Below are positions 212 to 17,264 of a stretch of DNA of 40,773 nt, piece by piece. Positions within the stretch are counted from its first letter, which is position 1; each line of letters opens with the position of its first letter. The position numbers and the translations under genes were made by a program. This stretch comes from Planctomycetota bacterium (GTDB lineage Bacteria > Planctomycetota > MHYJ01 > JACPRB01). The stretch is from the NCBI GenBank assembly GCA_035574235.1, contig DATLZA010000113.1, forward strand, positions 1 to 40,773. Direction: 5' to 3'. Under the pieces are notes generated by a model, which saw only the letters and a list, made by a program, of their open reading frames with translations, ran no database searches and was not told the DNA's origin.

Positions 212-240
212 TTGACTCCGGGACGTCCTCCCCCTAATAT
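212..240 (+). promoter_or_regulatory. Sigma70-type promoter of the MarR operon
   Basis: TTGACT at 212-217 and TAATAT at 235-240 are separated by exactly 17 bp. The expected start of transcription is near 247, only about 7 nt before the ATG at 254, so the leader would be extremely short. Confidence 0.8.
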
Positions 241-255
241 ATAGGAGTCCTATAT
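239..255. promoter_or_regulatory. Palindromic operator overlapping -10, RBS and start codon
   Basis: ATATAGGA and TCCTATAT form a perfect 8-bp inverted repeat around one central base (247). It overlaps the end of the -10 box, the AGGAG ribosome-binding sequence (243-247) and the first two bases of the ATG at 254. MarR proteins bind short palindromes as dimers, so autorepression is the natural inference. Binding would block both RNA polymerase and the start region. Confidence 0.75.
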
Positions 256-907
256 GAATGACGACGTCCGTCCTTCCGCGCTCGCCCGGTTCGAGCGGGC
301 CTCGGGCTCCCTCGACGAGCGTCTTTCCGCCGCGCTGGCCAAGGTCGCGCTGGCGGCGCGGCACGATCTTCGCCGGGCCGCGGCCCGGGACGGCCTTTCC
401 GCCGTGCAGGCCCAGATCCTGGCCGCCCTCTCGCGGGAGGGCGCGCTCGAGATCGGCGCCTTGGCCTCGCGGCTGGGCCTCACGCAGCCCACCGTCAGCG
501 ATTCGGTGGCCGCCCTTGAAGCCCGAAGGCTCGTGCGGCGCCGGCCCGACCCGGCCGACCGGCGGCGCGTGCGCGTCGAGGCCTCCGCGGCCGGACGCCG
601 CCTGGGAGGCCGCCTCGTGCTCTGGCCCGAGCTTTTCCGCGAGGGACTCGAGGGACTTTCCGAGGCGGACAAGGAGATCCTTTTCCGGACGATGCAGAAC
701 GTGATCGTGAGCCTGCTCGACCGCGGCGCGATCCAGGAGGCGCGGATCTGCCGCACGTGCGCCTGGTTCCGGCCGAACGTCCGGCGGGACCCGCGCCGGC
801 CCCACCTGTGCGCGCTTGTGGGGCTTCCCCTGGGGCCGGCCACGCTGCGGGTGGACTGTCCGGACCACCGTCCCGCCGCCGCCCCGCCCCGAGGAGGACG
901 CGCATGA
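254..907 (+). CDS. MarR-family regulator with C-terminal four-cysteine extension
   Basis: A 217-residue winged-helix regulator. Residues about 20-155 have the MarR layout: a helical dimerisation segment, a DNA-recognition region around 61-95 (IGALASRLGLTQPTVSDSVAALE), and a wing with RRPDPADRRRVRV. After the usual family end there is an extra tail of about 55 residues with C166-x2-C169, H184/C186 and C202 (CRTC … HLC … DCPDH). This spacing could bind zinc or an iron-sulphur cluster, or act as a thiol switch. The start ATG 254 has AGGAG at 243-247. Its stop overlaps the ATG of the amidotransferase (904), and a glutaredoxin-like gene follows, which suggests redox or metal sensing. Regulation is probably autogenous through the palindrome at 239-255. 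Function of the tail is inference. Confidence 0.88.
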   Translation: MNDDVRPSALARFERASGSLDERLSAALAKVALAARHDLRRAAARDGLSAVQAQILAALSREGALEIGALASRLGLTQPTVSDSVAALEARRLVRRRPDPADRRRVRVEASAAGRRLGGRLVLWPELFREGLEGLSEADKEILFRTMQNVIVSLLDRGAIQEARICRTCAWFRPNVRRDPRRPHLCALVGLPLGPATLRVDCPDHRPAAAPPRGGRA

Positions 908-1605
908 ACCGGCCGTGGATCGTGATCCAGCACGTGCCGTTCGAAGGCCCCGGGCTGTGGGCGGAAGAGGCCGAACGCCGCGGCATCCCCCTGCGCGTCG
1001 TTCGAACCGACCGGAGCGACCCCGTTCCGGACCCGTCGGGGCTTGACGCGTTCGGCGGGCTCATCGTCATGGGAGGCCCCATGTCGGTGCGGGACGCTCC
1101 GCGCCTGAAGCACCTGGATCTCGAGCGCCGGCTTCTGGCCGAGGCGGCGCGGCGCGGGATTCCGGCCGTGGGCGTGTGCCTGGGCGCGCAGCTGCTGGCC
1201 TCGGCGTTCGGCGCGGAGGTCTATCCCGGACCGGCGCCGGAGATCGGCTTCGGCTCCGTCCGGCTCACGGAGGAAGGACGGCGCGATCCGGTGCTCGGAC
1301 CGGAGGCGGAGCTTCCGGTCTTCCACTGGCACGGGGAGACCTTCGATCTTCCGCGGGGCGCTGTTTGGCTGGCCCGTTCGGAGGCGTATCCCCACCAGGC
1401 GTTCCGGATCGGCGCGAACGCCTACGGATTGCAGTTTCACGTCGAACTGAACGCCCCTCTGGCGGAAGCGTGGGCCCCGCATCTGCCGGAGGGCGTCCGG
1501 ATCGTGCCCTCGGAGCGCGAATCGGTCGAGCGCTCCGGGCGGCGGGTGATCGCCCGGTTCTTCGACCGGGCGGCGGATCGACCGGAAAGGAGCCGATCGA
1601 CATGA
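904..1605 (+). CDS. Class I glutamine amidotransferase (GMP-synthase-GATase-like)
   Basis: A 233-residue stand-alone class I amidotransferase of the YfeJ / GMP-synthase-GATase-like type. The nucleophile elbow is GVCLGAQ with C92, and the catalytic His/Glu pair is in LQFHVE (H179, E181). GGLIVMGGPMSV near residue 51 and FHWHGETFDLP near 140 are also typical of the family. Such proteins hydrolyse glutamine to glutamate and ammonia, or act on gamma-glutamyl substrates; the true substrate cannot be told from sequence. The ATG overlaps the MarR stop (ATGA) and its own stop overlaps the next ATG, so the three genes are translationally coupled. Cytoplasmic, no signal peptide. The partnership with a redox-type MarR and a glutaredoxin hints at glutathione or thiol metabolism, but this is inference. 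Confidence 0.9.
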   Translation: MNRPWIVIQHVPFEGPGLWAEEAERRGIPLRVVRTDRSDPVPDPSGLDAFGGLIVMGGPMSVRDAPRLKHLDLERRLLAEAARRGIPAVGVCLGAQLLASAFGAEVYPGPAPEIGFGSVRLTEEGRRDPVLGPEAELPVFHWHGETFDLPRGAVWLARSEAYPHQAFRIGANAYGLQFHVELNAPLAEAWAPHLPEGVRIVPSERESVERSGRRVIARFFDRAADRPERSRST

Positions 1606-1838
1606 CGAAGGCGACCTTCTATCACGCCGGCTGTCCCGTCTGCGTGGACGCCGAGCGGCTCGTGGCGGAGGCGATCGACAAGTCGCGCTACCAGCTCGAG
1701 GTGGTCCACCTCGGCCGGGACAAGGCGCGGATCGCCGAGGCGGAGAAGGCCGGGGTGAAGTCGGTCCCGGCGCTCGTTCTGAACGGGAAGCCGTACCACA
1801 TCAACTTCGGAGCGTCGCTGGCGGATCTGCGCCGCTGA
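1602..1838 (+). CDS. Glutaredoxin/thioredoxin-like small protein
   Basis: A 78-residue thioredoxin-fold protein. The redox motif C11-P-V-C14 follows the first beta strand (ATFYHAGCPVC), and the cis-proline segment is SVPALVLNGK near residue 54, as in glutaredoxin-like proteins. It should be a cytoplasmic thiol-disulphide oxidoreductase. The ATG overlaps the amidotransferase stop (ATGA). It ends the three-gene operon and is followed by a GC-rich hairpin at 1859-1885. Its last 38 bases overlap the annotated end of the convergent GntR/LacI-type regulator, which may mean the regulator frame is artificially long. Confidence 0.85.
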   Translation: MTKATFYHAGCPVCVDAERLVAEAIDKSRYQLEVVHLGRDKARIAEAEKAGVKSVPALVLNGKPYHINFGASLADLRR

Positions 1839-4729: not shown

Positions 4730-6763
4730 ATGACGGTCCTGGGATGGTTGCTCTTGCTGGCGGCTCCGCAGGAAGATCATCCGCTGAACACCTGGGTCAA
4801 GCGCACGCCCGTCGAAGCGACCCCCGTGTCGCCGAGGCTGGGCTACGAAGGGGACTGCGTCTGGTACGCGCGGCAGGGCGTTCTTCTGCGCTACGGCGGT
4901 CACAATCAGGGAGGCGGCGGGGAGCAAGGCTCGGAAGTATGGATCTTGGATCCCAGGAGCTGGGCGTGGACGCTGAAGGAGCCCAACACCTCCCCTCCGG
5001 GGGTCTGCTGCGTCCAGCAGAACATCTACGACCCCGCCCGAGGGGTCTACCTCCGATTCCCCTCCTTCAGCGGGGGCCACGGGTGGCAGTGGCATCGGGA
5101 ACTTTACCTCAATAACACGAGTGTCTGGGCTTATGAGCTGGAAACCAACCTTTGGAAGAACCGGCGTCCCCTGCCCGCCCCGCCGATCGCGCCGCTGCGG
5201 TGCGCCTCCTGGGACAGCGACCACGAAGTCGTCGTGATCTTCGGAGGGGAGGGAAGCCGGGAGGGCACGCTCGTGTACGACCCCCACGCCAACACCTGGC
5301 ATCGAATGAAGCCCGCCCGCCAGCCGGAGTTCCGTTCGGGCGGCCAGATGTGCTACGACGAGGCCCGAAGGCTGCACGTCCTCTTCGGGGCGCAGTTCAG
5401 CCGGGACGACGCGACCTGGGTCTACGACCTCCGGAAGAACGAATGGAGCGCGCGCCGGCCCGACCCCCTGCCGCCCGCCGACAGGAACGACGCGGTCCTG
5501 GCCTACGACTCGGTGAATCGCGTGGTCCTGGCGATCGTGAAGGTGACGGAGGGCAAGGACGAAGACGCCCGGCACCGTCTGGAGACCTGGGCCTACGACG
5601 CCGGCGCCGACCGGTGGACGAAGATGAACCCCGCCCGCGAACCCGACCCGTCGGGCAACCGCGCGCGCGATCTCATGTTCGTCCCCGAGCACAATCTCTT
5701 CTATCTCGAGAACTGCCCCGGCAGGCCCCGCGAGCAGCAGGTCTGGACCTACCGCTACGCGGCGGGACGGCCGCCGGAGCCGATGTCGCTCCGCCTGAGG
5801 ACGCGGAAAGACGGGGCCGAGCTCGTCTTTCAGGGACCGCCGGGGAAGCATGCGGTGTTTCGCGGCGAAGGGCCGCGGCCGTGGGAGGCGGAGTTCCGAG
5901 AAGTCGGCGTTTGCGAGGCCGGCGCGCCGTTCGTGGATTCGGGGCTCCAGCCGGGAACCCTTTATCACTACCGCGTGGGCCGCGCCCGGGGACGCACCCA
6001 GCCGGCCCTCGTGGAAGACGTGGTGGTGTCCGTGCTTTCCCGCGAGGAGGTGGAGGTTTCGTGGAAGCCTCCTCCCGGCGATCCCGCGGTGGGGTACCAT
6101 GTCGAGCGCGCCGCGGTGGAGGTCTATTCCGAGGACCAGCTCAAGCGTCTCAAGTCCCGCACGCCGCCGCTGGAGCCGCCCTCGGTGGGCGCGATCCGCA
6201 AGGTGGGGCCGTTCCGGCGGCTCACCGAGGCGCCGGTGGGCGGGACCTCCTTCACGGACCCCGTGAATCTCGAGGCGCTTCCGAAGATCGACGGCGATCC
6301 GGTGTTTGACGCGCCGTTGAATTCCGAACAGCTGGACCCGGCGGGGCGGCCCTGTCGCTTCGCGGTCTACGCCTACCGCGTGCGGGCCGTCAACGCGCTC
6401 GGGGTCGAAGGCGGTCCTTCGCCGGCGGTCTTCACGCTTCCTTCCGCGCCTCAGTGGCTCTTCTCCAGGGAAGACGGAGCGAGCGGCCACCTCAAGTGGG
6501 CGGGGAACCCCGAGAAGGCGATACGGGGCTATCGCGTCTACCGCATGGACGGAAGGTGGGACAAGGACACGGTTTCGCGTCTCACCCCCGAGCCGATCGC
6601 CCGGACCTCCTTCCGCGACCCCGAAGCGGCCGGAAAAACGCGCCGCTATTACGTCGTGGCGGTGGACGCGATCGGCCAGGAGGGGCATCCCTCGGCGCCG
6701 GTCTGGTACGAGCGGGAGTGGAAAAAGTATTACGAACCGTTCGTGGGAGAGTGGCACCAGTGA
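4730..6763 (+). CDS. Secreted kelch-repeat protein with C-terminal fibronectin type III domains
   Basis: 677 residues. A short signal-like start (MTVLGWLLLLAAPQE) is followed by galactose-oxidase/kelch-type beta-propeller blades through about residue 350. Repeating units carry Y-D and W pairs (VWILDPRSWAWT, VWAYELETNLWKNRR, TLVYDPHANTWHRM, TWVYDLRKNEWSARR, TWAYDAGADRWTKM). Residues about 360-660 form three fibronectin-III-like modules, including VEVSWKPPPGDPAVGYHVER and GYRVYRMDG. AGGAGG ends 4 nt before the ATG. It lies 9 bp after the transglutaminase gene, and a related kelch gene follows after 47 bp. Likely an extracellular or periplasmic binding protein; I see no catalytic copper-ligand set, so enzymatic galactose-oxidase activity is not claimed. 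Confidence 0.87.
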   Translation: MTVLGWLLLLAAPQEDHPLNTWVKRTPVEATPVSPRLGYEGDCVWYARQGVLLRYGGHNQGGGGEQGSEVWILDPRSWAWTLKEPNTSPPGVCCVQQNIYDPARGVYLRFPSFSGGHGWQWHRELYLNNTSVWAYELETNLWKNRRPLPAPPIAPLRCASWDSDHEVVVIFGGEGSREGTLVYDPHANTWHRMKPARQPEFRSGGQMCYDEARRLHVLFGAQFSRDDATWVYDLRKNEWSARRPDPLPPADRNDAVLAYDSVNRVVLAIVKVTEGKDEDARHRLETWAYDAGADRWTKMNPAREPDPSGNRARDLMFVPEHNLFYLENCPGRPREQQVWTYRYAAGRPPEPMSLRLRTRKDGAELVFQGPPGKHAVFRGEGPRPWEAEFREVGVCEAGAPFVDSGLQPGTLYHYRVGRARGRTQPALVEDVVVSVLSREEVEVSWKPPPGDPAVGYHVERAAVEVYSEDQLKRLKSRTPPLEPPSVGAIRKVGPFRRLTEAPVGGTSFTDPVNLEALPKIDGDPVFDAPLNSEQLDPAGRPCRFAVYAYRVRAVNALGVEGGPSPAVFTLPSAPQWLFSREDGASGHLKWAGNPEKAIRGYRVYRMDGRWDKDTVSRLTPEPIARTSFRDPEAAGKTRRYYVVAVDAIGQEGHPSAPVWYEREWKKYYEPFVGEWHQ

Positions 6764-10343: not shown

Positions 10344-10757
10344 ATGGACCACAGGGCGGTCGAGTACTTGGAATTGTCCGGCGGGATCGATACGGCGAAG
10401 CGGTTGATCGCGCGCAATCTGGACAAGTTGGATCTTGATGAACTTGATGACGCCAAGAAGGCAAGGCTCAAGAATGCTGTCCTTACACGCTTCCTTGAAC
10501 GGTTCAAGGAAGGAGCGGCGAAGATCGTTGAATCCACATTCCCCTCGAATGTGCTCGACGAAGCCTTGAAGATCCTCAAGTCGGAGGTGGGGCGGAACAT
10601 GACCTTCTACAACGTGATGGCCGAGTCGCGCTTGGCCGACTTGGCTGAGAAGGAGATCAAGAAGGTGATCGAGGAATTGGAGAAGGAGGAAGACGAAGAG
10701 GAGCGGAAGCGCAAGCAAGAAGAGCGGAAGGACAGGGGAAGCAAAGGAAAGAAGTAG
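10344..10757 (+). CDS. Small helical protein with highly charged C-terminal tail (cargo, unknown function)
   Basis: 137 residues, no signal peptide. Residues 1-100 are helical (VEYLELSGGIDTAKRLIARNL; FPSNVLDEALKILKSEVGRNM) and faintly resemble DUF2059-type domains, but I do not assign the family. Residues about 105-137 are an almost uninterrupted run of E, K, R and D, probably a charged helix or coiled coil. I chose ATG 10344 because GGAGG lies 8 nt upstream and because the earlier in-frame ATG (10314) is inside the TATAAT box. The gene is flanked by two direct repeats, 9951-9987 and 10780-10817, as if it were an inserted cassette. It is the last plus-strand gene before the convergent serine recombinase. 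Confidence 0.72.
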   Translation: MDHRAVEYLELSGGIDTAKRLIARNLDKLDLDELDDAKKARLKNAVLTRFLERFKEGAAKIVESTFPSNVLDEALKILKSEVGRNMTFYNVMAESRLADLAEKEIKKVIEELEKEEDEEERKRKQEERKDRGSKGKK

Positions 10758-17189: not shown

Positions 17190-17234
17190 TGGAGCGGGCG
17201 ACCGGATTTGAACCGGCGACCTTCTCGTTGGCAA
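17190..17234. repeat. Right attachment-site repeat (within tRNA-Gly)
   Basis: A 45-bp exact copy of 8104-8148. It runs from the first base of the anticodon loop to the terminal A of CCA, which is the usual target segment for tRNA-directed tyrosine integrases. Confidence 0.93.
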
Positions 17235-17264
17235 CGAGACGTTCTGCCACTGAACTACGCCCGC
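17190..17264 (-). tRNA. tRNA-Gly (GCC)
   Basis: 75 nt with encoded CCA. The 7-bp acceptor GCGGGCG/CGCCCGC, D stem GTTC/GAAC, anticodon stem TCTCG/CGAGA with loop TTGCCAA (anticodon GCC), and T stem with loop TTCAAAT all fold correctly. It is the intact copy after integration of the element; its 3' 45 bases are repeated at 8104-8148. Confidence 0.97.

Follow-up and report, generated by a model that had tools for sequence, protein, structure and literature searches.

A MarR-family regulator with a four-cysteine tail: a candidate metal or thiol switch with a conserved operator at its own start

A 40,773-nucleotide stretch of DNA from a member of the Planctomycetota (the window; it begins at its contig's first base, in a draft genome of 4.06 Mb) opens with the gene for a MarR-family regulator that ends in a tail bearing four cysteines and whose own start appears to be covered by an operator. 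What might such a protein sense, and which genes might it control? A sequence-only reading had suggested a switch based on a metal or on thiols, with an operator that covers the start of its own gene. As a reading this is well supported by the comparisons reported here, in which the cysteines, the operator, and the redox neighbours all prove to be conserved, although the gene most often found beside the regulator elsewhere in the family, that for protoglobin, does not adjoin it in the window.

We present evidence for a cross-phylum MarR subfamily, apparently undescribed, that uses a dedicated operator and is strongly linked to globin and thiol-redox genes. MarR repressors, cysteine sensors, and globins are each familiar; their combination with a dedicated operator and a tie to protoglobins appears to be new. 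A literature search, with most subscription papers outside its scope, returned no description of the tail and no MarR protein controlling protoglobins. For the terms MarR, globin, protoglobin, and TAGGA, the accessible text of a 2005 study of nitrogen-oxide regulons (PMC1274295) contains one passage, concerning a Campylobacter globin.

The regulator, its promoter, and its operon

The window protein belongs to the MarR family by Pfam (MarR_2, 1.8e-15; MarR, 9.5e-13), with MarR-domain scores of 57.3 and 48.3 bits against cut-offs of 27 and 24.6; no NCBIfam model scored above its cut-off, the best being NF052438 with 43.9 bits against 220. With other MarR proteins, such as Rv0880 (PDB 4yif), it shares the winged-helix domain, the fold, and, as predicted here, a palindromic operator at its own promoter, and it differs from them in about 60 extra residues that contain four cysteines. 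Alignments to MarR structures in the PDB end by residue 157, upstream of all four, so that the tail cysteines do lie outside the usual MarR fold as had been claimed. An AlphaFold2 model (six sequences) has the MarR fold, the best Foldseek match being MftR (E 1.7e-5) in a list headed by MarR-type proteins, with TM-scores to target of about 0.5-0.6 and high rmsd; the tail, at a pLDDT of about 40, was not modelled. PADLOC matches fall on the winged-helix part, residues 38-117. No Pfam or NCBIfam model matched the extra tail above its cut-off, and a Pfam search with the window's tail alone matched no family.

Table 1. Coordinates of predicted features in the window and of the family of about 240 residues in other loci.
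Feature	Location	Strand	Basis or remark
Sigma-70-like promoter, TTGACT-17-TAATAT	212-240	+	Promoter scoring
Predicted operator, perfect 17-bp palindrome ATATAGGAGTCCTATAT	239-255	.	Inverted repeat and family conservation
MarR-family repressor with four-cysteine tail	254-907	+	ORF, ATG start, 217 aa
MarR winged-helix domain, residues 47-106	392-571	+	Pfam
Four-cysteine tail, residues 164-205 (C166, C169, C186, C202)	743-868	+	Alignment, tail profile
Class-I glutamine amidotransferase	904-1605	+	Pfam; start overlaps MarR stop
Thioredoxin_3 (glutaredoxin-like), 78 aa, YHAGCPVC	1602-1838	+	Pfam; start overlaps amidotransferase stop
Family of about 240 aa	L045:4611-5351		
Family of about 240 aa	L047:4712-5455		
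Family of about 240 aa	L049:2741-3508		
Family of about 240 aa	L050:4582-5298		
Family of about 240 aa	L052:4582-5298		
Family of about 240 aa	L108		
Family of about 240 aa	L117		

C166 is the first cysteine of the window protein, and identity with an OhrR/SydR-type sensor was rejected on that ground. Among 57 members aligned from window residue 16, no column corresponds to the helix 1 cysteine of OhrR/SydR-type proteins, and no cysteine is conserved in the aligned part of the MarR fold.

The promoter region is as compact as the sequence-only reading had described it, with the promoter close to both palindrome and ATG and the palindrome, at exactly 239-255, lying across the regulator's own start. 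The palindrome runs from the end of the -10 element across the predicted transcription start and into the start codon, of which it includes the first two bases; its core, TAGGANTCCTA, occupies 242-252. Shuffles of positions 150-1000 gave a mean of 0.0 sigma-70-like sites of this kind. An AGGAG is found at 243-247, upstream of the MarR ATG; from this promoter transcription would start near 247, which would leave the AGGAG mostly outside the mRNA and thus make the transcript nearly leaderless.

On its own the palindrome is not rare. The window holds 13 entries of such size, where Markov sequences counted in the same way average 10.2 (arms of at least 8, spacers of 0-4, some palindromes being entered twice at two spacers), and the significance of this one comes from its position and its conservation elsewhere; a chance palindrome was rejected only once the operator proved to be conserved across the family. 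Within the 4.06-Mb genome the exact core occurs once, as does the 17-bp site when as many as three mismatches are allowed, and one-mismatch cores show no enrichment, being found at 19 places where the reversed pattern is found at 115. These counts argue for a local switch, and the candidate role of global regulator in this genome was rejected.

The three genes for the MarR protein, the amidotransferase, and the Thioredoxin_3 protein all overlap, forming a tight operon. The MarR reading frame and its four cysteines are present as first described; the glutaredoxin-like partner is indeed in the operon, but as its third gene, with the amidotransferase intervening. Relatives of the amidotransferase occur near tail-bearing MarR genes in L046, L051, and L128, and relatives of the Thioredoxin_3 protein no more than 1.5 kb from the regulator in L044, which comes from a Sphingopyxis, and in L046, L112, and L115. 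In the window, the thiol-redox neighbour of the regulator is this Thioredoxin_3 protein; no haem gene adjoins the regulator, and no protoglobin match was found in the first 9 kb.

Distribution of the four-cysteine tail

When 84,980 species were scanned, each represented by a single genome, with six search patterns of which two derived from the tail, five relatives emerged, two from Chloroflexota and one each from Kapabacteria, Bacteroidota, and Acidimicrobiia; in these and the window protein all four cysteines are invariant (6/6). By tblastn, 34 plasmid records matched, all over residues 47/48 to 202-205, and they include Alpha- and Betaproteobacteria, a Nostoc, a Deinococcus, and a Spirosoma. 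The tail-only profile A2 was positive in 10 of 294 genomes from the window's phylum, 20 of 301 from the phylum of L008 (Chloroflexota), and 17 of 296 from the phylum of L012, each count including the genome on which the search was centred; since about 20 candidates were scored per genome, these counts are lower bounds. Whole-protein searches of four genomes from the window's own family gave tail-less MarR matches or none, and a tail search in three of the four found no tail. One scan of viral contigs with the L008 protein gave no match.

Sixty loci were compared, comprising the window, one locus from each of 49 other tail-positive genomes, and 10 of the 34 plasmid records (L140-L142 being near copies), together with 26 control MarR loci, all from the window's phylum. 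The tail, C-x2-C-x(9-17)-C-x15-C, is intact in 59 of the 60, which cover six named phyla and the window's own; in the window it reads C-x2-C-x16-C-x15-C. Selection of the loci by tail profile makes it partly circular to find the cysteines in them; less affected by that choice are the last spacing, constant at x15 across intact tails, and the finding that no other cysteine column exceeds 4/57 in the tail-bearing alignment. None of the 26 control proteins has the motif. Poor conservation of the tail cysteines in orthologues, named at the outset as an outcome that would count against a switch, was looked for across phyla and did not appear. The sole exception among the 60, L155 (G421:C47), departs after the third cysteine and lacks the fourth; the same genome has a second tail-like match, on contig C120, which was dropped from the set.

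A tree of the MarR part minus the tail was built from 57 tail-bearing rows (L144 and L147 being too short and L155 lacking the motif) and the 26 control rows. The tail label changes three times on this tree, against 22.3 times in shuffles. The starred group that contains the window has 36 rows, every one of them tail-bearing, and the window's sister (98/97) is L110, from the same phylum. As the tree rests on few columns and its tail-bearing rows fall into three groups, a single origin of the tail is not established.

The operator and the neighbouring genes

Across the family the core TAGGANTCCTA is found again, either at the start of the regulator gene or ahead of the operon to which that gene belongs. 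The 531 kb of the 60 loci contain 25 exact cores, spread over 23 loci, where Markov shuffles gave 0.10. An exact core lies no farther than 1.5 kb from the regulator in 22 of the 60 loci and a core with at most one mismatch in 38, compared in each case with none of the 26 ordinary MarR loci; in 21 of the 60, a search that allowed one mismatch found no operator. The motif TTGAC lies within 45 bp upstream of 24 of the 43 distinct operator sites, against 2.5% of random same-locus stretches. To judge from this recurrence, the prediction that TAGGANTCCTA is the operator of the MarR subfamily, in most of its branches, is well supported, and that the family and its operator are both real is very probable.

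Two loci of a branch marked by FG[VI]C, L112 and L114, lack TAGGANTCCTA and have a common upstream palindrome, GTATCGANTCGATAC, perhaps the branch's own operator. A variant core, TAGGTATCCTA, is found upstream of protoglobin in L127 and L128, from the phylum of L008, 753 and 1323 bp before the MarR start.

Of the 50 tail-positive genomes, 28 were searched for a strict form of the site, WTAGGANTCCTAW, as were 28 genomes without a tail match that were hand-picked by us. The tail-bearing set amounts, from the listed sizes, to about 107 Mb, and it leaves out most of the weaker-scoring Chloroflexota and the weak members of the window's phylum G039, G085, G150, and G214. In the tail-bearing set it occurs at 15 places in 14 genomes, and 14 of the 15 are at the regulator's own locus; the reversed pattern occurs at 2 places. 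In the tail-negative set the strict site occurs once, inside an ORF, and the reversed pattern at 7 places. In view of the reversed-pattern counts, here and in the window's genome, the evidence is the place of the sites and not their number. The fifteenth strict site, on another contig of G212, lies 4 bp before the gene for a 291-aa protein with two matches to Bac_globin (truncated haemoglobin). The window's sister, L110, combines an exact operator with a protoglobin gene 3 bp downstream. Operators standing away from the MarR gene mostly precede another gene of the locus, namely protoglobin in L127, L138, L139, L143, L150, and L154, redoxin in L146 and L153, cytochrome P460 in L151 and L152 (one-mismatch sites), and the secreted protein of about 240 residues in L108.

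Protoglobin (PF11563) is the commonest neighbour across the family: at a distance of up to 1.5 kb from the regulator it occurs in 32 of the 60 loci and in none of the 26 controls; for the window's phylum the figures are 4 of 10 tail loci against 0 of 26 (p=0.0036). At the same distance, the other partners among the 60 loci are MOSC (7), the secreted 240-aa family (7), redoxin (6), Thioredoxin_3 (5, including the window), glutaredoxin (4), AhpD-like proteins (4), amidotransferase (3, including the window), cytochrome P460 (2), AurF (1), and thiol peroxidase (1), and each of these families is absent from the 26 control loci. The counts come from a search with profiles seeded from the same loci, window included, and leave out two neighbour clusters merged by low-complexity frames. 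A haem or thiol-redox partner is present anywhere in the fetched stretch in 46 of the 60 loci. Thiol-redox partners occur in 17 of the 60. The Nostoc locus, L046, combines amidotransferase, thioredoxin, thiol peroxidase, and globin, and an NnrS gene lies near L045.

In the phylum of L008, 41 of 251 genomes have a protoglobin match; of 30 protoglobin loci fetched there, 11 contain a tail-bearing MarR gene and 19 do not. If the 251-genome sample corresponds to the first 250 genomes of the tail search, protoglobin would occur in 15 of the 17 genomes with the tail and in 26 of the remaining 234.

The family of about 240 residues, which by eye has a signal-like start, adjoins the regulator in seven of the 60 loci (Table 1), and the six members tested (L045, L047, L049, L050, L052, and L117) had no Pfam match. 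On a Paraburkholderia plasmid (L048), a tail-bearing MarR gene is found without listed partners and without the operator; its product perhaps has a different target.

The centre and the signal

Taken whole, the following scheme is the best explanation, with chances a little better than even. The regulator would be a local autorepressor of its three-gene operon, its dimer being predicted to bind 239-255 and to block the sigma-70 promoter by covering the -10/+1 region. The four tail cysteines would hold one metal centre, more plausibly an iron-sulfur cluster than zinc. Were this centre altered by an oxidant, by nitric oxide, or by a nitrogen species related to it, the repressor would leave the DNA and the operon would be switched on. 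Release would induce haem and thiol defence genes, the putative targets being protoglobin, truncated haemoglobin, cytochrome P460, and thiol-redox genes across the family, and here the amidotransferase and the thioredoxin-like protein. Of the separate parts, a metal in the tail is likely, an iron-sulfur cluster there is an evenly balanced call, and a nitrogen species as the signal is somewhat less probable than that. More tentative still is the proposal that the proteins form a HiPIP-like iron-sulfur MarR subfamily, a dedicated sensor of NO (or O2) that controls globins through TAGGANTCCTA in several phyla.

Two points favour an iron-sulfur cluster over zinc: haem proteins, which deal with NO or O2, are the partners met most often, and the tail cysteines resemble those of HiPIPs, C-x2-C-x(about 16)-C-x(about 13), in order and spacing. 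HiPIPs are electron carriers and not regulators. Homology to them was considered and remains a lead only: with profile A2 searched against the PDB, HiPIP 3h31 was the second of three matches at a non-significant E=0.66, the match was gone with the larger profile A3, and the HIPIP model (PF01355) matched 1 of 40 tails, at E 0.056, none significantly.

A Zn(Cys)4 tail, either structural or acting as an oxidant-opened zinc-thiol switch with the same operator and targets, is a less likely occupant. Four invariant cysteines suit zinc as well as they suit an iron-sulfur cluster, the matches of single tails to zinc families and to iron-sulfur families are equally weak, and the thiol-redox partners of 17 loci would fit a zinc-thiol switch. 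The tail, however, has one CxxC pair where common zinc ribbons carry two, and the commonest neighbour is a haem globin.

With the cluster retained, the signal could instead be oxygen or general redox state, an iron-sulfur repressor then keeping the globins off without oxygen; we regard this as doubtful, to the same degree as zinc. O2 and NO are both ligands of globins and possible signals for iron-sulfur regulators, and the set of partner genes does not separate the two, but the cytochrome P460 genes behind the one-mismatch operators of L151 and L152 and the NnrS gene near L045 point weakly to nitrogen species.

A metal-free thiol-disulfide switch, in which the tail would form disulfides on oxidation and be reset by the operon's thioredoxin-like protein, would suit the thioredoxin, glutaredoxin, and redoxin neighbours, and the accessible text on SydR provides an example of such sensing in a MarR protein. 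It is nonetheless improbable, as four cysteines kept at fixed spacing exceed the needs of one disulfide switch and the only other cysteine column reaches 4/57. No better placed is an ordinary small-molecule repressor whose tail merely stabilises the dimer and whose redox neighbours are incidental, for although many MarR proteins bind aromatic acids, redox and haem neighbours are enriched here relative to ordinary MarR loci and the out-of-locus operator also precedes a globin gene.

If the tail does hold an iron-sulfur cluster, the regulator may, by analogy, work like NsrR or SufR without being one. NsrR, SufR, and ArnR, with which it would share this way of working, are repressors with a cysteine-bound cluster that control NO or redox genes; they belong to other DNA-binding families and have other cysteine layouts than the window regulator. 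Among MarR repressors, SydR and OsbR answer oxidants, as is proposed here; in the accessible portions of their papers the cysteines named are C16 and C114 for SydR, a disulfide sensor, and C55 and C133 for OsbR, and these lie inside the MarR fold, whereas those of the window regulator lie beyond it. The accessible text on CioR of Chromobacterium violaceum describes a MarR autorepressor of an operon protective against nitric oxide, with one named cysteine, C52, and cytochrome bd genes as targets (PMC11837568). By the cysteines named in these texts OsbR, CioR, and SydR have no tail, and they were rejected as members.

A defined operator would allow a simple reporter to reveal the signal that induces protoglobin, and regulated genes to be read from sequence. 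If the iron-sulfur proposal is true, the regulator would be the first known MarR-type iron-sulfur sensor, as we know of no earlier one, and bacterial protoglobins, whose role in their single-domain form is to our knowledge unsettled, would gain a regulator and a physiological signal.

Elsewhere in the window, ARAGORN called a tRNA-Arg at 1482-1579 (+), within the amidotransferase gene and probably false, and an ordinary-looking tRNA-Gly at 17190-17264 (-). The adjoining proteins encoded at 4730-6763 and in the next frame, to 8055 (+), have by eye the look of Kelch-type repeats, and a perfect palindrome with 11-bp arms, CTTCCTTGAACGGTTCAAGGAAG, is found at 10490-10512.
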